Origin: a virus
Reading direction: 5' to 3' (one strand)
DNA length: 40,947 bases
Virus record (IMG/VR): IMGVR_UViG_3300025889_000269
Location: 1-40,947 of that record
Shown: in pieces, positions 14,598 to 40,947 of the stretch
Layout of the letters: the number at the start of each line of letters is the position of its first letter
Position numbering within the stretch: the first letter of the stretch is position 1
Notes under the pieces: model-generated
Databases searched by the model: none
What the model saw: the letters and a program-made list of their open reading frames with translations, nothing else
What the model was told of the DNA's origin: nothing
Position numbers and translations under genes: made by a program

Positions 14598-16145
14598 ATG
14601 GCTGGATACACAACTAACCCCGGGCTCTCAAACAGTATTGCTGGTTTCGGTAAAAGCCTTTTCGGCGACCCCTCGACCAAGATCAAGGCGGCGCAGCTTC
14701 GCGCACAGGCCGGGAAGTACAACCAAGAGCGTCTCAAAGTCATTCAAGACATGGAGATTGCGGCGGCCAAAGAGGCCCAGCGGATCAAAGACCAAGAGGC
14801 GATGGAGCAATCCGTCAAATCCCTTGGCGAGATTTTGGCCCGCCGCCCCGGTGATGTCCAAGCGATTGTCGAAGGACAGCGCCCGACCCCGGATATGGTC
14901 GGCCCCATGCCCGCCGTCGAAGACAAGTGGACGAAAGACGAAATTAACCGAGACCTGTCTGGTGTCTTGGCGGGCCTGACCCGCTTTGACGGCATGAACA
15001 CCCGGGCCAACCGCGCCCTGCAAGACGCTTTCGCGCTGCAAGCCCCCGATTGGCGGTCCCGTCAGTCGGCCCTTGGCAATGCCACGGGCTCGAACCTTAA
15101 CAGCCTCGACCAAGACGCGGAAATCGCGCGTCTCAAAGACGAACGCGCCAACCATCACGCGATGGCGCTGGACGCACAAAAGAACGCCCACGCGGTCAAT
15201 CTGGCCCGGGTCAACGCGGGTCTCAAGCCGATTGCGCCTGACAAAATCCTCCCGCAACCGCTTCAAGAGGTGACAGGGGTCTCTCAAGAACAGGCGACAG
15301 GGGTGGGAGACGCGATCTCGGCCCGAGACAGTCAAGAGGTCATCGACCAGAACGCGGCGAAGCCCAAAACCGGCAACGTCAAGCCTCAGATTTACTTCTA
15401 CCAAGGCCCCGACGGGAAGATGGTTCAAGGTCTGACCCACGACGGCGGTCTGACTGACGTGCATACCGGAGCGAAACTCCCCCCGGGAACTCAGGTCACA
15501 ACGAAGACTGTTGAGGGCACCGCCGAGGAAGTCGGGGCCCCGCAACTAGGTCTCGAAAGCAAAAGCAACCGAGACAAGGCGGCCCAACAGCGTGTGAAAC
15601 TGCAAAGTCTCAGTGACGGTCTTACTCGGGTGAAAGAGATCATCACTAGCGATCCGTCGCGGGTCGGCTGGCGCGGTAATCTGATCCGCTTCTCCCAAAG
15701 CATGATCGACAGTTTCGGTACGTCAGCGGAAGACCTGATTGAAAACATCGCAAACGACGGGCGTCTATCCCCCGAACTGCGAGACAACATGCTGGCGGAG
15801 TTTGACCGAGACAGCGCGAGCCTCGAAAGCCGCTATACGCTTCTGGCGTATCTGGCCGCCGAGGCGGTTGCCGGGCAGACGGGCCGAGCATTGTCTGACA
15901 ACGATTTCAAGAAATTCCGCGCGGCGTTGGGTGATCCGACGTCTTGGACCCGGGGCCCGCAAGACGCCCTGTCTCACCTTGAAATGTTCGAGGAAGCACT
16001 GAAATCCTCGGGTGTCCAACTCGACAACCTCGGCGTTCCGCCAATCCCGGGGCAAGGGGGTGGGCAACAGGGCCCGGTAGGCAACAACCCACAGGTTGAA
16101 GCGATCCTTAAGCGGACCTTGGGACCGGCGACGGGGGGTAGCTAA
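14598..16145 (+). CDS. Internal virion / ejection protein, 515 aa
   Basis: ATG 14598 lies 10 bp after the previous stop with AAGGAACC upstream. Mostly Ala/Gln/Lys/Glu-rich helix with a probable coiled coil at about 20-75. The Gly/Pro-rich C terminus (PPIPGQGGGQQGPVGNNP) resembles that of disordered ejection proteins. The region QRVKLQSLSDGLTRVKEI to FKKFRAALGDPTSW looks like a compact helical domain. No lytic transglycosylase motif is seen. By order it corresponds to T7 gp15 or P22 gp20. Confidence 0.62.
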   Translation: MAGYTTNPGLSNSIAGFGKSLFGDPSTKIKAAQLRAQAGKYNQERLKVIQDMEIAAAKEAQRIKDQEAMEQSVKSLGEILARRPGDVQAIVEGQRPTPDMVGPMPAVEDKWTKDEINRDLSGVLAGLTRFDGMNTRANRALQDAFALQAPDWRSRQSALGNATGSNLNSLDQDAEIARLKDERANHHAMALDAQKNAHAVNLARVNAGLKPIAPDKILPQPLQEVTGVSQEQATGVGDAISARDSQEVIDQNAAKPKTGNVKPQIYFYQGPDGKMVQGLTHDGGLTDVHTGAKLPPGTQVTTKTVEGTAEEVGAPQLGLESKSNRDKAAQQRVKLQSLSDGLTRVKEIITSDPSRVGWRGNLIRFSQSMIDSFGTSAEDLIENIANDGRLSPELRDNMLAEFDRDSASLESRYTLLAYLAAEAVAGQTGRALSDNDFKKFRAALGDPTSWTRGPQDALSHLEMFEEALKSSGVQLDNLGVPPIPGQGGGQQGPVGNNPQVEAILKRTLGPATGGS

Positions 16146-21103: not shown

Positions 21104-21179
21104 TGGTGCCGCAGGGGAGATTTGAACTCCCGACTTCCCCCTTACCAAGGGGGTACTCTACCCCTGAGTTACTGCGGCA
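21104..21179 (-). tRNA. tRNA-Thr (anticodon GGU)
   Basis: Read on the minus strand, a complete cloverleaf is present. The 7-bp acceptor stem TGCCGCA/TGCGGCA is perfect. The D arm is ACTC-AGGGGTA-GAGT. The anticodon stem CCCCC/GGGGG holds loop TTGGTAA, so the anticodon is GGT (reads ACC and ACU). The T arm is GGGAG-TTCAAAT-CTCCC. CCA is encoded at the 3' end. It stands between the convergent virion block and the lysogeny operon, close to the integrase. It may be a phage tRNA or part of an attachment site. Confidence 0.93.
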
Positions 21180-21954: not shown

Positions 21955-22968
21955 TCAGGCTCTCCTGTTCACGGCGTCGATCAGATAATCGGGCGAATGG
22001 TGTCCGTAGACGCGGGTTACGGTTTCGACGGTGTCTCCCAAGACCCCGGCGACATTCCAAATCGAGACCCCGGCGCGTAACATGAGCGTCGCGGCGGTGT
22101 GGCGCATGACGTGGGGCGTCACCCAATCGAAGCCCGCGCCGTGTCTCCATGTCTCGAACGTCTTCCGAATTGCCCCGGGGTGATCCAAAACGAACTGTGT
22201 TTGGCGTTCACGTTTCGCCCGTTCCAAGACAGGCATCAGGCGGTCGGAAATAGGCACCGGCACCCGGCGCTTTTTACTCACACTCATTGACGAGTCGCGG
22301 AAGTCGATAAGTTTGCCCGTCAGGTCAACGCGATCCCAAGTCAGGCCCTCAATCGCCTTTTTGCGGGCACCTGTGTCGAGCGCAATCGCCACGAAGCGGG
22401 TCAGGCGGGTCAGACGGGGCTCTCCAAGGCTATGCCCATACGCGAGGGCTAAGAACTCGTTTTCTTGTTTCTCGTCCAGCCAGACGTCGCGGGGCTGCCC
22501 AGTGGGGGGTAAATCGACATACGGCACGTCTTTGGGGTCGATCAGCTTGTGTTTGACGCCAAACCCAAAAATGGTTTTCAAGACCGATAAGTCGCGACGT
22601 AGGGAACTGTCTGCCACATTTCGAGACACGCGGAATTTTAAAAAAACGTCAGGGGTGATTTCCCGGGGCGTCATGTCTCCGAAAAAGCCCATGACCACGG
22701 CGGCAGACCGCTGTTGCCCGTCTTTTACGCCCCGAGCCTTGGCGGCGGCCAAATACTGTTCGCCCAAGTCTCGCACCGTCGGGTCGGAGAGCGAACGGGC
22801 TATCTCTTGCTCCTGTTTAATGAACTCAGCGAGGATAAGTTTCGCTTCACCGAGGCTTTTCGTGCCCGTGCTTTGAGTGCGGGAACGGTATGACCCGTCG
22901 GGGCGCTTTTCGGAGTAACGGATTTCAAATCTGCCGCTCCGGTTCTTTGCGAGGGTTGGGTTGAGCAT
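21955..22968 (-). CDS. int: Tyrosine integrase, 337 aa
   Basis: Catalyses attP x attB recombination for lysogeny. N-terminal arm-binding domain with RFEIRYSEKRPDG; core-binding domain at about 62-150; catalytic domain with Arg202 (DTGARKKAIEGL), the Lys beta-hairpin (KKRRVPVP, about 232-240), HVMRHTAATLM (His286, Arg289) and Tyr321 in VYGHHSPDYL. The box-III position usually held by His or Trp (LGH) reads LGD here; variants with other residues there occur in the alphaproteobacterial VYGHH-type integrases. ATG 22968 has GAAAGGAAC upstream. The 5' end is overlapped for 169 nt by the excisionase candidate. Confidence 0.92.
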   Translation of the reverse strand: MLNPTLAKNRSGRFEIRYSEKRPDGSYRSRTQSTGTKSLGEAKLILAEFIKQEQEIARSLSDPTVRDLGEQYLAAAKARGVKDGQQRSAAVVMGFFGDMTPREITPDVFLKFRVSRNVADSSLRRDLSVLKTIFGFGVKHKLIDPKDVPYVDLPPTGQPRDVWLDEKQENEFLALAYGHSLGEPRLTRLTRFVAIALDTGARKKAIEGLTWDRVDLTGKLIDFRDSSMSVSKKRRVPVPISDRLMPVLERAKRERQTQFVLDHPGAIRKTFETWRHGAGFDWVTPHVMRHTAATLMLRAGVSIWNVAGVLGDTVETVTRVYGHHSPDYLIDAVNRRA

Positions 22969-32965: not shown

Positions 32966-33037
32966 ATGCCCGGCCTAAATATACCCTCACCGACTGTTGG
33001 CGACAACCCTCAAAACTTATCATTTTTGGGGGCGTGA
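32966..33037 (+). CDS. 23-aa leader peptide before the primase-helicase gene
   Basis: ATG 32966 sits behind GAAAGGAACCTCCA, among the best ribosome sites in this part of the window. It encodes a 23-residue peptide (MPGLNIPSPTVGDNPQNLSF and three more) ending at TGA 33035-33037, one base before the ATG of the primase-helicase. That geometry suggests translational coupling; the peptide itself may have no other role. Confidence 0.5.
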   Translation: MPGLNIPSPTVGDNPQNLSFLGA

Positions 33038-33038
33038 A

Positions 33039-35372
33039 ATGGGCGGTGAAAACGTGGTAACAATGGCGAAGCGGGTCGATCTCACGAACGAAGACTTCCT
33101 CAAAGGCATCTTCGGTAACGAATGGGAACGGGCCCACGTTACGAGTTTCAAAGAAGACCCGTATGATCTGGATAATCTGGGTCTCAGGCACTACTGGGGC
33201 GGCGGCCCCGCGAAGACACAACTTCCGTACTGTCTCGGGGATCGGAACACATATTTTGTGATCTCCCTGTTTGAACTGGCGGAAGACGGCAAAGCCCGCC
33301 GCCGCAAAGACCTCCACGACGCAACGTATGTGATAACCATTGATGACGTTCACGACAAAGTCCCGGCGGAGAATATCAAAAACCTACCAGAGCCGAGTTA
33401 TATCTTGGAGACGTCGTCGGGTAACGAGCAATGGGGCTTCATCCTTGAGACACCGGAGACACGGCAAGAACGGGTAGACGCGCTCTTAAATGGGCTGGTT
33501 GCTGCTGGGATCGCTGATGACATGAAAGACCCCGGCATGAAAGGCGTCACCCGATATGTTCGGCTGCCTGTCGGGTCAAACACCAAAAAGAAATACGGCA
33601 AACCCTTCAAGTGTAAACTCACGAAATGGGAACCGGATTTGAAACACCGGCTGGAAGATTTGGCCCGGCCCTTTGGGATCGACGTGACGAATGTCTCAGC
33701 CAAGACGTCTAAGTACGGTTCCGGGATCGACGAAGACAAAGACCCGATTGTGCCCCTACTGTCTCAGGTCGGGATTTTCAAAGGCAAGATCAAACCCGAC
33801 ACCTACGACATCGAGTGCCCTTGGGTGCATGAGCATACCGGCGCGGCTGATAGCGGCGCGGCGTATCTGTCTCCGTTCGGGTTTAGGTGCCACCACGGGC
33901 ACTGTGAGCAACGCCACTACGGCGACCTGATCGACCACATTGACGCCAAATTGCCCGGCTCAAAGAAGTCTGTCGAGTGGGCTCAGATGGTGCATGAGTT
34001 TGACGAGAATAACCGCTGGCCCTTTGAGATCGCGCAGACATGGAAAGACAGGGAAACCATTGAGGCGCATCGGGGCTGGTTGGCGCATTTACAGGTTTTG
34101 GACCCGCTACAATATGACAGGTTGGTAGACAAGTGGGATGTTCTCTGTGGGGTGCCCGAAAGTGTCATACAAGACATTGAAGACGCCGCCGAGACAGAGC
34201 GTGTCCACAAGTCCACCGGGGGGCTGGTTATCACCCGCCCCGGCGAATGGTCAGGTAAGACCCCTCCGCAGCGTGAGTGGGTGGTGGAAGATTGGCTGCC
34301 CAAAGGCAAGGTCACGTCTCTGTATGGAGACGGGGGCTTGGGTAAGACACTGGTCGCGCAAATGTTGGCGACCTGTCTCTCTGTTGGTGGCGATTGGCTC
34401 GGCGAGAAAACTCAGAAGTCCCGGGTACTGGCGGTGCTGTGTGAAGACGACGCGGATGAAATCTGGCGGCGTCAGGATGACATTAACAACCACTATGTCT
34501 TGGACATGAATACATGGGACGGGCCAGACAAAGACACGCTGGCCTATATGTGCCGCGAAGGCGAAGATAACTTATTGATGACGTTTGACGGCTCCGGCAT
34601 CGGAACTCTCACGGATTTCTGGGTAAACCTCCGAGACGCGGCTGTTGCGATGAAAGCGGATGTAATTGTTTTGGACACGCTGGCTGATGTATTCGGCGGC
34701 AACGAAGTGTCTCGGCTGGAAGTCAGACAGTTTGTGCAACGGGCGCTCTTGGGTCTCGCCCAAGACATAAATGGCTCCGTCTTGTTCCTAGCCCACCCGT
34801 CTCAAGCCGGTAAGTCCTCCGGGCAAGGTTTCTCAGGTTCAACTGCTTGGAACAACTCTGTCAGGAGTAGGTGGTATCTTTCTTCGATGGACGACAACGA
34901 TCCGTCAGGGGTTTTAGGGGGCCGAAACAACTTGAGGCGCTTGTCTCGGGTCAAGTCCAACTATTCGGCGTCAGGCTCAGAGACAGACAAAATCTTGGAA
35001 TGGGACAAGGGGGCTTTCAAGGTAGTGCGCCAAGTCACTGCCGGGGAAATCGACCCGATCACAGGCAAGACAGAAGCCGAGACCGAGATCGAAGGCATTA
35101 TCGAAGACGGGATCATATTGGCCGAAGACAAGAAACACGCGCTGTCGTTCTCCAAGAAAGCCGGTCACGACAAGTGGCTCCCGGCGTGGTGTAAGGCTCG
35201 GGTTCACCGGGCACAGGTCTATCGTTTGGACGAGATCGAATTGGTCATGGAGCGGATGCGCGAGAGGGGCGAATTGGATACCGGCGATCTGGGCTGGAAG
35301 ACACCGACGGGGCGCTCGGGTCAGGGTGTTGTGGTTGTTTCCCGGGCGCAGATGCCAAATCCTTTCGATTGA
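33039..35372 (+). CDS. RepB-type primase fused to RecA/DnaB-fold helicase, 777 aa
   Basis: I chose ATG 33039; ATG 33063 is the alternative. The N-terminal half holds VITIDDVHDKVPAENIKN and SYILETSSGNEQWGFILETP followed by KGVTRYVRLPVGSNTKKKYG, like the RepB-type primase of phages and mobile elements. PWVHEHTGAADSGAAYLSPF and CHHGHCEQRHYGD look like a zinc- or substrate-binding middle segment. The C-terminal half is a RepA-like hexameric ATPase: Walker A YGDGGLGKT (about residue 430), VLCEDDADEIWRRQ, and Walker B VIVLDTLADVFGG (about 543). Iterons follow immediately downstream, so it may act as initiator as well as primase-helicase. Confidence 0.82.
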   Translation: MGGENVVTMAKRVDLTNEDFLKGIFGNEWERAHVTSFKEDPYDLDNLGLRHYWGGGPAKTQLPYCLGDRNTYFVISLFELAEDGKARRRKDLHDATYVITIDDVHDKVPAENIKNLPEPSYILETSSGNEQWGFILETPETRQERVDALLNGLVAAGIADDMKDPGMKGVTRYVRLPVGSNTKKKYGKPFKCKLTKWEPDLKHRLEDLARPFGIDVTNVSAKTSKYGSGIDEDKDPIVPLLSQVGIFKGKIKPDTYDIECPWVHEHTGAADSGAAYLSPFGFRCHHGHCEQRHYGDLIDHIDAKLPGSKKSVEWAQMVHEFDENNRWPFEIAQTWKDRETIEAHRGWLAHLQVLDPLQYDRLVDKWDVLCGVPESVIQDIEDAAETERVHKSTGGLVITRPGEWSGKTPPQREWVVEDWLPKGKVTSLYGDGGLGKTLVAQMLATCLSVGGDWLGEKTQKSRVLAVLCEDDADEIWRRQDDINNHYVLDMNTWDGPDKDTLAYMCREGEDNLLMTFDGSGIGTLTDFWVNLRDAAVAMKADVIVLDTLADVFGGNEVSRLEVRQFVQRALLGLAQDINGSVLFLAHPSQAGKSSGQGFSGSTAWNNSVRSRWYLSSMDDNDPSGVLGGRNNLRRLSRVKSNYSASGSETDKILEWDKGAFKVVRQVTAGEIDPITGKTEAETEIEGIIEDGIILAEDKKHALSFSKKAGHDKWLPAWCKARVHRAQVYRLDEIELVMERMRERGELDTGDLGWKTPTGRSGQGVVVVSRAQMPNPFD

Positions 35373-35585: not shown

Positions 35586-35739
35586 ACATGGTTCACGACA
35601 TGGTTGCTACATGGTTACAAGGTTAAGGGTTAAGTCATTGAAATCATTACGACATGGTTCATTTTCGACATGGTTCCGACATGGTTACATGGATAAGGGC
35701 TAAGTCATTGATTTTAAAGCTACATGGTTCGACATGGTT
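35586..35739. repeat. Iteron array, replication-origin candidate
   Basis: The 8-mer ACATGGTT occurs at 35586, 35598, 35609, 35652, 35668, 35679, 35722 and 35732, with a degenerate ACATGGAT at 35687. Within clusters the spacing is mostly 8-12 bases (one 16), roughly one helical turn. Two clusters end in a second shared element, TAAGGGYTAAGTCATTGA (starting at about 35624 and 35694), which makes a larger repeat unit of about 65-70 bp. The block is AT-rich relative to its surroundings and directly follows the RepB-type primase-helicase. Origin of replication is the most economical reading; a pac or partition site is possible. Confidence 0.7.
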
Positions 35740-35747
35740 GGTCAAAA

Positions 35748-35813
35748 CGCCTTGACGTCCCCGGTGGCACCCCCCATAGAGGGGTGGGGTGCCTCCCGGG
35801 GGGACGTTAGGCG
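35748..35813. repeat. Long imperfect inverted repeat
   Basis: CGCCTTGACGTCCCCGG... (from 35748) faces ...CCGGGGGGACGTTAGGCG (to 35813) with an inner GGCACCCC/GGGGTGCC pair and a short AT-containing loop. About 25 of 28 stem positions pair. It follows the iterons and may be a terminator in both directions or a cruciform of the origin. Confidence 0.6.
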
Positions 35814-35850
35814 GCGAGTATAACTATGTGTTATCTAACGAAGTGTGATA

Positions 35851-35934
35851 ATTTTCGTACCTCGTACAATCTCGGAAATTTTGGAATTTTCGTACCGCGT
35901 ACAATCTCCGAATTTTCGTACCTCGTACAATCTT
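35851..35934. repeat. Three 23-bp GTAC-type direct repeats
   Basis: ATTTTCGTACCTCGTACAATC and two near-copies start at 35851, 35886 and 35912; the middle copy reads CCGCG where the others read CCTCG. Each unit holds GTAC-N3-GTAC, itself a small dyad. The spacing is 35 and 26 bases. These could be binding sites for a dimeric regulator or a second class of origin repeat. Confidence 0.65.
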
Positions 35935-35939
35935 TGAAA

Positions 35940-36813
35940 TCAGGCGCGGCGGCGGAGGGGCAGGCCTCGCTCCCGCCCGGGCCCGCGCGGCGGCCGCGCG
36001 TGTCTCAAGACGGCGTCTCGCCGTCTCGGCCCGAGACCGAGACGGCGAGACGCCGCCCCGGGCGTTAAAACTAAAACCGCCGCGCGACGTTCCGGCGTCA
36101 AAAATCTTACGACCCGGCCCCGGTTTTTTTTCTCGATCTCGACCCGGCGGCGCTCGACCTCGACCCGGTCGCCGATCTCGACCTCGACCCGGCGGCGCTC
36201 GACCTCGACCCGGCGGCGCTCGACCTCGACCCGGTCGCCGATCTCGACCCGGCGGCGCTCGACCCGGTCGCCGATCTCGACCCGGCGGCGCTCGACCCGG
36301 TCGCCGATCTCGACCCGGTCGCCGCCCCGGGGCCGACGTGCCCGGGCCCGCCGCCGATCTCGACCTCGACCCGGTCGCCGACCTCGACCCGGTCGCCGAC
36401 CTCGACCCGGTCGCCGACCTCGACCCGGTCGCCGACCTCGACCCGGTCGCCGCCCCGGGGCCGACGTGCCCGGGCCCGCCGCCGACGGCGGGGCCGGGAT
36501 AGGGCCGCCCGCCCTCGGCGGCGTCTCTCGCCGATCTCGCCGCCCCGGGGCCCGCCGCGCGACGTCGAGCGGGGCGAGAGACGCCCAAAAATGGCCCGCC
36601 AAGGGCCGACAAGGGCCCGCCGGGGCCTCGACCCGCCCCGGGGCCCTCTCGGCCCCGTGCGGGTAAAAAAAAGGGCCCCGGGTCTCTCGACCCGGGGCCC
36701 TCGGCGGGCGTCTTATTTTTTCCGACCTCGACGCCGTCGCCGGGCGACGTGCCCGACCTCGGCGCATAGGGCCCCGACCAAAACGGCGAGGGCCCCAAGG
36801 GCCGCCGGTATAA
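35940..36813. repeat. GC-rich low-complexity intergenic DNA
   Basis: About 870 bp with no credible gene. An 18-bp unit CTCGACCCGGTCGCCGAC is repeated in tandem (36365-36452, four full copies and one partial). A 47-bp segment at 36311-36357 recurs exactly at 36439-36485. From 36130 to 36310 the same words (CTCGACC, CCGGCGGCG, GATCTCGAC) are shuffled irregularly. Long open frames here arise because the repeats lack stop codons. The terminator of the leftward CobT-like gene lies inside at 36665-36700. Confidence 0.7.
36665..36700 (-). terminator. Intrinsic terminator of the CobT-like gene
   Basis: On the minus strand GGGCCCCGGGT pairs perfectly with ACCCGGGGCCC (11 bp) over a 6-base loop, followed by eight T. 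It lies about 110 bp after the stop of the CobT-like gene. Confidence 0.88.
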
Positions 36814-38709
36814 TCACCGGGCGGCCCCCAATTGCCGGGCGAGAATGTCGAGACCGGCGGCCCCAAGGTCGCGCACGTCGTCGATTTTTTGGGCGACCTT
36901 GAACGCCCGCACGTCGGACCCGCCGCCGATGCCGAGCCCGGCGACCTCGACGCCGACGCTCTCGGCATAATCGACCGCCGCCCGCAAGGCCCAAGGGCCG
37001 CACCCGCACCCGCCGTCGGTCAAGACTAGCATGATCCGCCGGTTCACGTTCGCGACGTCGCGCAAGCGCAAGGCCCCGGCGACGACCGACGACGTGATAT
37101 TCGTTCCGCCGCCGAGAGAATATTCGGCCTTGCCGATATTCTCGACCGCCGCCCGGTTCCAAGCCTCGGCCAAGGTTTTGACGGCGTAAACGGTTTCGCC
37201 GCCGCGAAAACCCATGATCTCGAACGGCACCCCGGCGGCCTTTAAAGCCTCGCCCAAGTGAACGGCGAGACCGCAAGCGGCGTGGATACGACGGCCCCCC
37301 ATGCTCGGCGAAAGGTCGAGTATGAGCGAAACGACGCTATTGACGGCGTCTTGTTTGCGCCGGGTCCGAAAGACGTTTTTTCGGCCCGCCCGCATTGCCG
37401 GGATTGCGCGAACGTCGAGACGCCCGGCGTCTTGCCAGCGCCGCCTGTCGGTTCGGCCCGGGGCCCGGACAATCGCCCGGACTTGGGTTTTCAGTTTCGA
37501 CGGCACGGCAATGTCGGCCTTGGCCCGGTCGGCCCCGGCGGCCATGTCGGAACCTCGAAAAGTTTTCTGTATCTCGCGAGAGACCGGCGACCGGGTCAAA
37601 ATGCCGTTCCAGACGTCAACGCCGTCGGCGTCAATGCCAAGGTCGGCGGCGACGCCGTCGGCGGTCGGTTCGGCGTCTTGCAAATTGTCGAGCCCGCCGC
37701 CGGTCCAATCGTCGCCGCCCTTGCCCGCGCCGTCGCCGGGCTTGTCGCCCTGGTCGCCCTGGTCGCCCTGGTCGTCGCCCTGGTCGTCGCCCTGGTCGTC
37801 GCCCTGGTCGTCGCCCTGGTCGCCCTGGTCGTCGCCCTGGTCGCCCTGGTCGTCGCCCTGGTCGTCGCCCTGGTCGTCGCCCTGGTCGCCCTGGTCGCCC
37901 TGGTCGCCCTGGTCGCCCTGGTCGCCCTGGTCGTCGCCCTGGTCGCCCTGGTCGCCCTGGTCGCCCTGGTCGTCGCCCTGGTCGTCGCCCTTTTCGCCGG
38001 GCCCGGGTTGCGGTTCGGGGCCTTGCTGGTCGGCGTCGAAAAGGTCGAGCAAATCGCGAGCGATTGCGACGACGTCGGCGGTCGAGCCCGCCCGGTCGAG
38101 CCGGTCGAGCGTATCGCGGACGATTGCCGATTGCGCCGGGCCGAGAGCCCCGGCGAGCCCGGCGGCGGCGGGCACGTTATAACCGCACAAATCGACCCGA
38201 CCCAAAACGCAAAGGGTCCAAAGGGCCCCGCCCGGGCCGTTCGGGTTAAACCCGCCGCGCACGGCGTCGGCGTGTAACTGGTCGATCAAACGTTCGAGAC
38301 AATCGCGGAACCGACCGGCGACCTTTTCGCGAATTGAAACACGTTCAATTCGCACGTCTTCGAGGGCGTTTATAATACGATGGAAAGCCGTTTGTTTGCG
38401 ATACTCGACCGCACGCACGGCCTCGTCCCATGCCTCGGTGTCGGTCCAAAGGTTGTGCGAAATTTCGTGCAGAATATACGCCGTGAACATGTCGGCTTGG
38501 TCGCGGGTCATAGACCCGGCGACCGGCAAAGCGGGCATGTTTAAATCGACGCGCATGGTCGAGCCGTCGCGCCCGGACCCGTAAAAACGGGTCCAAGCGG
38601 TCGAGCCCGAGCAAAGCACTTTGACCTTTGCCTTGACGCCCGCCCGCGCCAAAAATTTTTGGGCGGTCGGGCCGACGGCGGCGAGGAAATCGGTGTTTTT
38701 AACCTTCAT
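36814..38709 (-). CDS. CobT-like protein: HExxH metallopeptidase-type domain, DQG repeat, VWA domain, 631 aa
   Basis: N-terminal region with HEISHNLWTD (HExxH at 81-85) and a helical RIINALEDVRIERV segment, as in CobT-like and VWA-linked putative metallopeptidases. Residues about 241-320 are 23 tandem DQG or DDQG units. The C-terminal VWA domain starts near 464 with the MIDAS motif LDLSPSMGG and continues with GGGTNITSS and MLVLTDGGCGCG. Partner of the upstream AAA+ ATPase, as CobT is of CobS; cobalt chelation is unlikely since no cobalamin genes are near. It may be a remodelling machine of unknown target. Composition differs strongly from the phage block. Confidence 0.82.
   Translation of the reverse strand: MKVKNTDFLAAVGPTAQKFLARAGVKAKVKVLCSGSTAWTRFYGSGRDGSTMRVDLNMPALPVAGSMTRDQADMFTAYILHEISHNLWTDTEAWDEAVRAVEYRKQTAFHRIINALEDVRIERVSIREKVAGRFRDCLERLIDQLHADAVRGGFNPNGPGGALWTLCVLGRVDLCGYNVPAAAGLAGALGPAQSAIVRDTLDRLDRAGSTADVVAIARDLLDLFDADQQGPEPQPGPGEKGDDQGDDQGDQGDQGDQGDDQGDQGDQGDQGDQGDQGDDQGDDQGDDQGDQGDDQGDQGDDQGDDQGDDQGDDQGDQGDQGDKPGDGAGKGGDDWTGGGLDNLQDAEPTADGVAADLGIDADGVDVWNGILTRSPVSREIQKTFRGSDMAAGADRAKADIAVPSKLKTQVRAIVRAPGRTDRRRWQDAGRLDVRAIPAMRAGRKNVFRTRRKQDAVNSVVSLILDLSPSMGGRRIHAACGLAVHLGEALKAAGVPFEIMGFRGGETVYAVKTLAEAWNRAAVENIGKAEYSLGGGTNITSSVVAGALRLRDVANVNRRIMLVLTDGGCGCGPWALRAAVDYAESVGVEVAGLGIGGGSDVRAFKVAQKIDDVRDLGAAGLDILARQLGAAR
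37741..37990 (-). repeat. Coding tandem repeat (DQG/DDQG units)
   Basis: The 9-bp unit TGGTCGCCC and the 12-bp unit TGGTCGTCGCCC alternate irregularly, 12 and 11 times, within the CobT-like gene. The frame is always kept. Such arrays change length by slippage in steps of three or four residues, so the linker between the two domains of the protein may vary among relatives. Confidence 0.85.
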
Positions 38710-38722
38710 GGTCTCGCCCCCC

Positions 38723-40255
38723 TTATGCGTTCACGTTGTCGAGATCGAGGGCGTCAAAGCCCAAGCGGGTCTCGACGTCGTCGGTCGATTGCGGGGCCGC
38801 GCCGTCGGGCGACGGTAAAGCCTCGCCCCGGGCGAGGGCGTCAATAACGGCGTGATCGAGCCCGCCGACGCCGTCGCCGATCTCAAGTTGCCGGTATATC
38901 TCGACGTGCGCCGGGTCGGCCAAATTGACGACCGCCATATTGAAAGCTTCGGCGCTTGGGAAACCGTCGGCGACAAGTTCGGCCCAAGCAAAAACGCGAC
39001 GGGGCGAGAGCCCGGCGCAATCGTTGCCTTTTTGCCGGGTCAGGCCCGCGAACGTGACCAGCTTGTCGGCGGTCGCCCGGTTTAAACCCGTGCGGGCCTC
39101 GACAAGCGCGACCTCTTTGGCCTTGGGCAAATAACCGACCGGAATTGAGACGGCGGCGCGGTCGAGGAAAGCGGCGTTCATAGGGCCGGTCCCGTGATAC
39201 TCGCCGGTATCGTCGCCATGCCCGGCGGTATTGTCGGCGATTGCAAAGACGACGCCCTCGGCGGCCTCGACGACCTCGCCGGTTTCGAGCGTAACGCGCC
39301 GAGTGTCCAGAACCGTTTGAAGGGCGTGTAACATGCCGACCGGCGCAAGGGTCGGTTCGTCGAGCAAAATTATCGTGCCCGGGCGGCGCATGGCGGCGAC
39401 CAGAACGCCGTCTTGCCAAACGACGCCGCCGGTCGGTTCGGGGACGACCATACCGAAAAGATGCACTGGTTCCATATCGGCGTGAAAACCAATGCGAACG
39501 TGCGGGCGACCGGTCCAAGCGGCGACCTGTTCGCAAAACGTCGTCTTGCCGACGCCGCGCGGGCCGTGCAACCAGATATTTTTCCCGCGCCGCCAAACGG
39601 CGAGGGCATAGGATAAGACTGTTTTATCCCATGCCATCTTTTTATCGCGGGCCGGGGCGTCGGCGGCGTTCCATATTGAAACCGGGAAATCAGACCCGTC
39701 GAGCGTAAGGCCGAAAACGTCTTTCCGGGTTTTGGTCTCGACGACCCGGGCCGGGGCGACCGTCGGGGCCTTTGCGACCGGCGCGGCGGGCGTCGGCATT
39801 GCGACGACGTTCGAGCCCGGGGCCGCCATTGCGGCGGCGAGACGTGCCGACGTCTCGGCGGCGGCGGTCTCGGCGTCGAGGGCCCGGGCGGCCAAGGTCT
39901 CGACCCGGGCGGCCATGTCGGCGATTGAACCGCTCAAAATATCGCGGGCGATTGCGTCGGCGGTCTCGCCGTCTTGGGTCTCGACCGGGGCGGCCTCGAC
40001 CTCGACGACCGGGGCGGCCTCGACCTCGACCGGGGCGGCGACCGGCGCGGCGACCGGCGGCGTTGCCGGGGCGAAAACGTCTTTCGCATATTGCCGGGCG
40101 TCGATACCGAGGGCGGCGGCGGCCTTTTCGAGACCGGCGACCGTAAGGCCGCCCGACGTGACGCCGTGCGCATCTTTATAGTCGCCCCATGCCGGGCTGT
40201 TTGTGATCGCCGCTTTTAAAGCCGTGCGGCCTTCGCTTGTGTATGTGTTTGTCAT
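38723..40255 (-). CDS. CobS/MoxR-like AAA+ ATPase, 510 aa
   Basis: Start at 40255 with CAAGGAACC 8 nt upstream; the open frame extends further but without ribosome site. Residues 1-60 form a helical domain (GLTVAGLEKAAAALGIDARQ). Residues 62-170 are low-complexity Ala/Pro/Val/Glu (EVEAAPVVEVEAAPVE) with a coiled part. The ATPase shows Walker A GPRGVGKTTF (231-240), Walker B GTIILLDEP (293-301), sensor-1 FAIADNTAG and LDRAAVSIPVGY. This matches CobS-type MoxR AAA+ proteins. It stands 13 bp before the CobT-like gene, and together they form a chaperone-like pair. Confidence 0.85.
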   Translation of the reverse strand: MTNTYTSEGRTALKAAITNSPAWGDYKDAHGVTSGGLTVAGLEKAAAALGIDARQYAKDVFAPATPPVAAPVAAPVEVEAAPVVEVEAAPVETQDGETADAIARDILSGSIADMAARVETLAARALDAETAAAETSARLAAAMAAPGSNVVAMPTPAAPVAKAPTVAPARVVETKTRKDVFGLTLDGSDFPVSIWNAADAPARDKKMAWDKTVLSYALAVWRRGKNIWLHGPRGVGKTTFCEQVAAWTGRPHVRIGFHADMEPVHLFGMVVPEPTGGVVWQDGVLVAAMRRPGTIILLDEPTLAPVGMLHALQTVLDTRRVTLETGEVVEAAEGVVFAIADNTAGHGDDTGEYHGTGPMNAAFLDRAAVSIPVGYLPKAKEVALVEARTGLNRATADKLVTFAGLTRQKGNDCAGLSPRRVFAWAELVADGFPSAEAFNMAVVNLADPAHVEIYRQLEIGDGVGGLDHAVIDALARGEALPSPDGAAPQSTDDVETRLGFDALDLDNVNA

Positions 40256-40324
40256 GGTTTGTTGGTTCCTTGTGTTTAGTCGGTTCGAGTGTTTGCCGTC
40301 GGGCGGCGTCGCCCGACACGTCAA

Positions 40325-40353
40325 TATATAACAATGTGTGATATAGAACGCAA
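40325..40353 (-). promoter_or_regulatory. Promoter of the CobS/CobT-like operon
   Basis: On the minus strand TTGCGT (40353-40348), a 17-base spacer and TATATA (40330-40325). Between it and the start codon lies a perfect 8-bp hairpin GTCGGGCG/CGCCCGAC (40298-40317) that would sit in the 5' leader of the mRNA. Confidence 0.6.
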
Positions 40354-40379
40354 GCGCGGCGTCGGGTATCATCCCGGGC

Positions 40380-40808
40380 ATGGCAAACAAAAACCCGACG
40401 CAATCCGAGACGTTCAAAACCAAGCGGGCCGCCGCCGGTTTTGGGTCGCCGTTCGCGACCGCCAAGACGTGCGCCGGTTGGTCGCGACAAAACGACCGAC
40501 CATGTCGGAACCGGGCGGCGTGGGGCCTCGAACATTGCCGGTATCATTTGACCGGGGCCGACCGCGCGGCCTTGCGAAACAATCCCGACCATAAACCGAC
40601 GCCCGAGCGTCGAGCCCGACACGCCCGCCGACAAGCGGCGCTCGACGCAATCCAAGACGCGCCGCCCGACGTCTTACGCTTGCCGGTATATCGGGCGGCC
40701 CGGTCTCTCGCCGAGAGGGCCGCCGTCGTTCTCGCCTATGTCGCCGCCCAAGCGGGCGACGGTCGGGCGTGGGCCGACCTAACGGGGCGTTATAATGCAA
40801 ACAGATAG
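40380..40808 (+). CDS. Cys/His zinc-binding phage protein, 142 aa
   Basis: The central motif CAGWSRQNDRPCRNRAAWG followed by C and H in EHCRYHL is a C-C-C-H zinc site of the 'CgartrsGtPCr..a..G...C..HGG' type found in small phage proteins often placed before terminase genes. Both flanks are Arg/Ala-rich and helical. It is divergent from the ATPase gene, and its 3' end overlaps the terminase-small-subunit-like start by 14 nt. The role is unknown, perhaps DNA recognition in packaging or HNH-like accessory function. Confidence 0.62.
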   Translation: MANKNPTQSETFKTKRAAAGFGSPFATAKTCAGWSRQNDRPCRNRAAWGLEHCRYHLTGADRAALRNNPDHKPTPERRARHARRQAALDAIQDAPPDVLRLPVYRAARSLAERAAVVLAYVAAQAGDGRAWADLTGRYNANR

Positions 40809-40947
40809 TGATATTATCCTCGCCGCTTTGCGCGACGTCATAAACGATAAGACCGCCGCCGCCGCCGCGCGGGTCCAAGCGGCGCGAACGCTCGCCGAGA
40901 TCGCGGGCCTATTGGGCAAGCACCAAGACGCGCCGACCCGACCCGGC
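40795..40947 (+). CDS. Terminase small-subunit-like N terminus (3' truncated by window)
   Basis: 51 codons are visible without stop. ILAALRDVINDKTAAAAARV, then QAARTLAEIAGLLGKHQDAP, is the pattern of the helix-turn-helix plus helix at the beginning of many small terminase subunits and related phage HTH proteins. It overlaps the zinc-binding gene by 14 nt, the usual arrangement of this pair. The remainder lies outside the window, so identity cannot be settled. Confidence 0.5.
   Translation, partial: MQTDSDIILAALRDVINDKTAAAAARVQAARTLAEIAGLLGKHQDAPTRPG

Follow-up and report, generated by a model that had tools for sequence, protein, structure and literature searches.

At its right end, the virus genome IMG/VR IMGVR_UViG_3300025889_000269 carries a leftward gene pair, both open reading frames (ORFs) lying on the minus strand with 13 bp between them. 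The pair encodes a CobS/CbbQ/MoxR-type AAA+ ATPase (P0001) and a CobT-like protein with a von Willebrand factor A (VWA) domain (P0002); the stretch analysed, the window below, is the whole record of 40,947 bp. Judged from its sequence, the pair belongs to a known phage family that is usually mislabelled as parts of a vitamin B12 enzyme. The N-terminal domain is common to the viral form and to the true cobaltochelatase subunit, and what separates them is a putative metallopeptidase active site, HExxH, in the viral form. We see about an even chance that the pair is an ATP-driven zinc-peptidase or remodeller that acts on proteins near phage DNA, and not a chelatase.

A putative metallopeptidase motif sets viral CobT-like proteins apart from cellular CobT

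P0002 carries HEISH at residues 81-85, where its composition predicts only ~0.002 HExxH motifs in a protein of such length. Viral relatives were collected by one pattern, Nx[LV]EDx[RWM][ILM]ER, which makes no use of HExxH, and HExxH was present in all 80 viral loci fetched in this way, 24-39 residues ahead of NxxEDxxxER. These are not 80 independent events, because P0002 was the tblastn query that confirmed the loci and many of them are cyanophage-like; they fall into 52 clusters, 41 of which have a CobS gene next to the locus, in either order. Across 51 aligned N-domains, H81, E82, H85, N114, E117, D118, E122 and R123 are invariant. The search that recovered the viral loci was a motif-based alignment scan; scans of viral contigs with single proteins gave false matches to the DQG repeats or nothing, and an alignment of two CobS rows yielded a single weak locus. 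At several loci (L108, L123, L126, L139-L141, L151, L156, L166 and L177), a short ORF of about 330-390 aa, devoid of VWA, encodes the HExxH domain, tblastn matches run on downstream, and the VWA domain appears to be a separate gene.

Among 100 sampled Pseudomonadota genomes, 23 encode a CobT above the curated cut-off. Ten genuine cellular CobTs that we fetched have an alignable N-domain, in which HExxH is absent from all ten; where the viral proteins have the ED pair, nine have EQ and the tenth EA. As far as this comparison goes, it favours the original prediction over one in which the homologues are true cobaltochelatase subunits. Since these ten proteins align in this region with neither HExxH nor the ED pair, the motif is, on the alignment, a trait of viruses and mobile elements and not inherited CobT background. 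For the viral N-domain, 'peptidase' would be the better label.

Predicted structure and family assignment of the pair

The AlphaFold2 (AF2) model of full-length P0002 shows confident N- and C-terminal domains that flank a disordered linker (Table 1). Modelled alone from 51 sequences, the N-domain reached a predicted local distance difference test score (pLDDT) of 92.9 and a predicted template modelling score of 0.89. In this model strands precede a helix (69-88) that bears HExxH, and NALEDVRIER (114-123) lies on the next predicted helix (103-127), where the invariant E117, D118 and E122 are candidate third-ligand residues. Thus, the downstream zinc ligands that the original prediction asked for have a conserved candidate motif, NxLEDxRIER (E117/D118), in the predicted fold. 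The C-terminal domain has a complete metal ion-dependent adhesion site (MIDAS; D465-x-S467-x-S469, T536, D565). In addition to Pfam CobT_C, the VWA half matched CobT (PDB 9uka, 3e-56) by profile, and the top Foldseek matches of the C-terminal half were the NorD VWA and the Rea1/MDN1 MIDAS domains (E 1e-10 to 1e-8). PHROG matches of P0002 were 1576, 17276 and 459 ('peptidase'). A PDB profile match to AcrIIA26 (E 0.007) was taken as chance.

P0001 consists of a variable N-terminal region of ~175 aa and an AAA+ core (200-450) with Walker A GPRGVGKT (231), Walker B IILLDE (295-300), ADN (340) and LDR (364). It matches AAA_5 (1e-15) and CbbQ_C (3e-8) in Pfam and, having both domains together with the Walker motifs, a sensor and an arginine finger, agrees with the MoxR/CbbQ proteins; it also matches PHROG 249 (E 8e-50). 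By sequence, its closest solved structures are midasin AAA modules (7e-37), CobS 9ujv (4e-24) and NorQ 9qh4 (6e-16). With the P0002 gene adjoining it and encoding a VWA domain with an intact MIDAS, the two form a MoxR-VWA pair. Both proteins are therefore as originally predicted, a MoxR-type AAA+ ATPase and a partner with HExxH at 81-85, a DQG hinge and a VWA/MIDAS domain.

Comparison with known systems

Cobaltochelatase CobS/CobT needs CobN. CobN was found neither in the window nor among the scanned ORFs, in line with the original statement that no cobalamin gene is near, and it occurred in 0 of 38 cobST virus records, some of which are fragments. The large subunit of ribonucleotide reductase (RNR), tested as support for a B12 reading, is absent from the window and scored above cut-off in just 7 of the same 38 records. 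Cobaltochelatase (TIGR01650/TIGR01651; PDB 9uka series) resembles the window pair in its AAA+ and VWA domains and its alignable N-domain, but cellular CobT is devoid of HExxH and the ED pair, and the window proteins score far under the curated cut-offs (P0002, 31 bits against 759 for the CobT model TIGR01651; P0001, 76 bits against 558.6 for the CobS model TIGR01650). With such scores, and with CobN missing from all those records, the pair is not demonstrably a cobaltochelatase.

The kind of system is known, because two publications and PHROG families already cover the pair, and the original suggestion of an undescribed system is not supported (PMC7824862, PMC8651126). Iyer et al. 2021 described, from group 2.2 jumbo phages, a MoxR gene paired with a vWA protein whose N-terminal domain is a metallopeptidase, and proposed a role in virion assembly, citing the MoxR-vWA pair of Acidianus two-tailed virus as precedent (PMC7824862). 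Its architecture is that of the window, an N-terminal HExxH domain fused to vWA by a MoxR gene; the window phage differs in its size (~40 kb) and in that family-wide neighbours are replication and recombination genes. The viral 'cobST' clusters (PMC8651126; Mae-Yong1326-1, PMC9503304; PHROG 249, 459, 1576 and 17276) are direct homologues of the window pair. They have been reported in viruses of eight host orders, with a cobalamin reading and with the 'peptidase' label called a mistake (PMC8651126), a rejection that the HExxH evidence given above opposes for the N-domain. NorQ-NorD and other CbbQ-type machines share CbbQ_C with the window ATPase, and the NorD VWA is the top fold match of P0002, but their role is cellular cofactor remodelling, unlike the window pair. 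We know of no HExxH domain in NorD.

The pair usually lies beside replication and recombination genes

The neighbours of the pair were surveyed as 150 proteins at 51 dereplicated loci, the counts being proteins that match a family, taken without a matched control set. The commonest named families were SbcC (12), the sliding clamp (12), primase/helicase (11) and small terminase (phrog_51; 11), followed by clamp loader (10), SbcD (10) and DnaB (10); the large terminase TerL accounted for 4. Among named phages, the pair adjoins gp46, clamp and clamp loader genes in cyanophages and Ochrobactrum phage OC, the DNA polymerase III alpha gene in SSU5, RHEph10, ANB28, B1VFA and hairong, and primase, helicase and polymerase genes in ICP2 and T5S1; ligase is also found among the neighbours. 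The pair thus usually lies beside replication or recombination genes.

Counterparts on IncC plasmids and in Parasutterella

The IncC plasmid pTC2 carries, in order, an ATPase, a protein of no named family, ssb, bet, exo, DUF3150 and a VWA protein. The ATPase is 28% identical to P0001 (E 7e-18), and the VWA protein, which carries HEAAH...NVLEDCRIER, aligns with the window profile over almost its full length (hhalign 99.9%, E 5e-34). The region of the IncC hde operon (vcrx089-093; PMC11602122) therefore holds a homologous ATPase and a homologous HExxH-VWA protein in one block; compared with the window, vcrx090, ssb, bet, exo and DUF3150 are extra, and tblastn at E 1e-3 found no homologues of these in the window. 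As the window has no vcrx090, ssb, bet or exo, we treat IncC as a lead on function and not as a claim of membership. In the literature, vcrx091 is the single-stranded DNA-binding protein (SSB) of a five-gene operon, vcrx089-093; by gene order, vcrx089 would be the IncC ATPase and vcrx090 the protein next to it. When vcrx089-090 were deleted from pKAZ3, type I restriction increased 906-fold for EcoKI and 424-fold for EcoBI; effects on two further systems were smaller (PMC11602122).

A genome scan returned two Parasutterella loci only; in Parasutterella genomes, one block holds CobS and HExxH-VWA together with a primase-like and a DUF3150-like gene. The DUF3150 gene of IncC lies between exo and HExxH-VWA (L192:13731-15008), and in a Parasutterella genome an ORF that looks like DUF3150 by appearance lies between CobS and HExxH-VWA (L196:6860-7813). 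DUF3150 is possibly a third component in mobile elements.

Layout of the locus and its linkage to the phage genome

The features of the locus are collected in Table 1. The leftward two-gene operon and its terminator, both part of the original prediction, were recovered; the predicted promoter was not, as a sigma-70 scan found no minus-strand site directly upstream of 40255. At ~35,940, GC content changes from about 57% to 63-75% and the dinucleotide distance, up to there about 0.10 at most, rises to about 0.2; because of this break we considered a chimeric contig. This was ruled out by single-contig linkage in a relative (L026/G001) and by the arrangement in phage Mae-Yong1326-1. In the former, IMG/VR contig 3300047669_001092 (TerL 83% and CobT 65% identical to the window), homologues of CobS and of the genes at 40380 and 40795 keep the window's order and strands on one contig. 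In the latter, the structural genes are collinear with the window, and similarity extends to the integrase region and to most of the replication genes. CobS-CobT occupy the matching convergent place next to the gene for a RecA-family ATPase, and beyond CobS lies a gene that resembles the one at 40795. In the window, the position of that ATPase is held by the primase/helicase gene, and tblastn detects no similarity between the two. The 40795 gene thus has a homologue at the equivalent place in both relatives; its 51-aa fragment has no PHROG match, and the product of 40380..40808 matches neither PHROG nor Pfam. On these gene arrangements, the cobST block is compositionally odd yet linked to the phage genome.

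Table 1. Features of the cobST locus in the window
Feature	Coordinates	Strand	Remarks
P0001, CobS/CbbQ/MoxR-type AAA+ ATPase, 510 aa	38723..40255	-	ATG at 40255, stop at 38723
P0002, zincin-like-VWA protein (CobT-like), 631 aa	36814..38709	-	AF2 mean pLDDT 74.5
P0002 N-terminal zincin-like domain, residues 1-235	38005..38709	-	HEISH 81-85 and NALEDVRIER 114-123
P0002 DQG-repeat acidic linker, residues 242-321	37747..37986	-	Predicted disordered; pLDDT <50 at 251-338
P0002 C-terminal VWA/MIDAS domain, about residues 401-629	36823..37509	-	Pfam CobT_C 3e-11; Foldseek
Intrinsic terminator of operon, strong	36671..36702	-	14-bp stem, loop of 4, T-run
Divergent intergenic region, 124 bp	40256..40379	.	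Sole possible site for a cobST promoter
Divergent upstream gene, 142 aa	40380..40808	+	56% aa identity to homologue beside CobS in L026
Small-terminase-like (TerS) gene start, running off contig	40795..40947	+	TerS label by sequence appearance alone
Primase/helicase gene, convergent, CobT side (replication module)	32997..35372	+	phrog_906, phrog_239

Unusual repeats surround the GC change (35596-36485): a ~70-bp unit present 1.9 times at 35596-35730, units of 26-35 bp around CGTACC(T/G)CGTACAATCT at 35850-35933, and long CTCGACC/CCGGTCGCC arrays at 36131-36485. These repeats may resemble a replication origin or be the scar of a recombination event. In L026, about 7.5 kb separates the homologues of window positions 40944 and 2852, and the 40795 gene runs off the window end; from this comparison the window record looks incomplete. 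tRNA genes were called on the minus strand at 15075-15170 and 21104-21178 (Leu-gag, Thr-ggt); the tRNA-Thr lies near the integrase gene (21955-22968) and could mark an attachment site.

The cyanobacterial host stated for Mae-Yong1326-1 is low in GC. The phage (OP028995.1; L014/L017), whose record gives Microcystis as host, has a GC content of about 72% throughout, and the stated host looks doubtful; top protein matches in its paper include Devosia and Roseicella (PMC9503304).

Discussion

As an ATP-driven zinc-peptidase or remodeller, the pair would work as follows. The CobS-like ATPase would form a ring, on which the VWA/MIDAS domain of its partner would dock and recruit or gate a protein substrate. 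ATP hydrolysis would pull or unfold this substrate, and the N-terminal zinc-metallopeptidase domain, held on the flexible acidic linker, would cut it. The most likely substrate would be a protein that either sits on phage DNA or attacks it around replication; of the single candidates, a type I restriction complex is the best. We infer zinc binding, proteolysis, formation of a complex and the target. The original 'ATP-driven protease or metallo-chaperone' is probably still the best general class, and HExxH, conserved as it is, is probably meaningful.

A more specific proposal is tentative, and we lean against it: phage and plasmid 'CobST' might be a widespread AAA+ metalloprotease counter-defence machine that removes type I restriction complexes, or breaks them down, as they translocate DNA. 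It might act on incoming or replicating DNA as the mobile-element counterpart of ClpXP restriction alleviation, and its N-domain might be a zincin-like fold that has no solved relative. The sole experimental lead, that from IncC, would by analogy point to counter-defence. A host defence system, a role that the original prediction noted for some MoxR-VWA pairs, was rejected (no PADLOC match).

Several observations weigh against a peptidase that acts near phage DNA, and against its counter-defence form. Foldseek of the N-domain against the PDB gave no match at E <= 0.001 (best 0.34; the HExxH enzyme leishmanolysin is listed at E 1.6 only). Against a viral structure library, phage and haloarchaeal-virus CobT/VWFA proteins came first and zincins after them, all matches to viral zincins, M48 and SprT being below threshold; because no solved structure matches the fold, the zincin label rests on the motif and on the order of secondary-structure elements. 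In Stenotrophomonas phage ANB28, the CobT-like protein (L022:1727-3712; 1 of the first 11 aligned) reads REVST where HExxH would stand; here the putative active site has been lost naturally, so not every member needs peptidase activity. For IncC, vcrx089 is taken as the ATPase because of gene order, with SSB as vcrx091, and secondary sources; the restriction phenotype was seen on deletion of two genes, one of which, vcrx090, lacks a homologue in the window; and the zincin-VWA gene lies outside the deletions reported (PMC11602122). The window-like group has replication genes on one flank and a small-terminase-like gene on the other, so the neighbourhood is also compatible with packaging or assembly. 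Finally, we found no experiment on any phage member of the pair in the literature.

The small-terminase-like flank, with the terminase counts of the neighbour survey (TerS 11, TerL 4 of 150), favours the proposal published for jumbo phages, in which the pair is a virion-assembly chaperone and maturation protease that remodels a structural protein for the peptidase to process (Iyer et al. 2021; PMC7824862). We consider it unlikely, as the immediate neighbours in most lineages are replisome or recombination genes and not structural ones, and IncC plasmids and the Parasutterella element have the pair with no virion genes adjacent. No more probable, in our view, is a metallo-chaperone or remodeller that performs no proteolysis, its zincin-like domain binding metal or substrate but not cutting, in the way that NorQ-NorD and CoxD-CoxE insert or remodel cofactors. 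Here, the best C-terminal fold match is the NorD VWA bound to NorQ, no solved zincin matches the N-domain, and both genuine CobT and ANB28 keep this domain with no HExxH, so it can work without catalysis; against this, the near-universal HExxH and ED motif in very divergent viruses is typical of catalysis. True CobST subunits that draw on the host's CobN and so increase the synthesis of cobalamin for the phage's metabolism (PMC8651126) are the least probable, indeed improbable, of these explanations: the VWA domain is clearly CobT-like and the ATPase matches solved CobS and, weakly, the CobS model, but the scores of both proteins are far under those required by the equivalog models, the diagnostic N-domain residues are unlike those of all ten genuine CobTs, CobN and mostly RNR are missing from the virus records, and IncC plasmids hold the pair next to recombination genes.

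What is new here is the conservation of HExxH compared with CobT, the confident N-domain with no solved match, the replication neighbourhood and the link to the IncC pair. 'Cobalamin' genes of tailed viruses are usually explained by host B12 metabolism. With a metallopeptidase motif in the viral proteins and an anti-restriction effect in IncC, the role of viral cobST becomes directly testable and, should the protease or the anti-restriction reading be true, many annotations of viral B12 auxiliary genes based on cobS and cobT would need revision.

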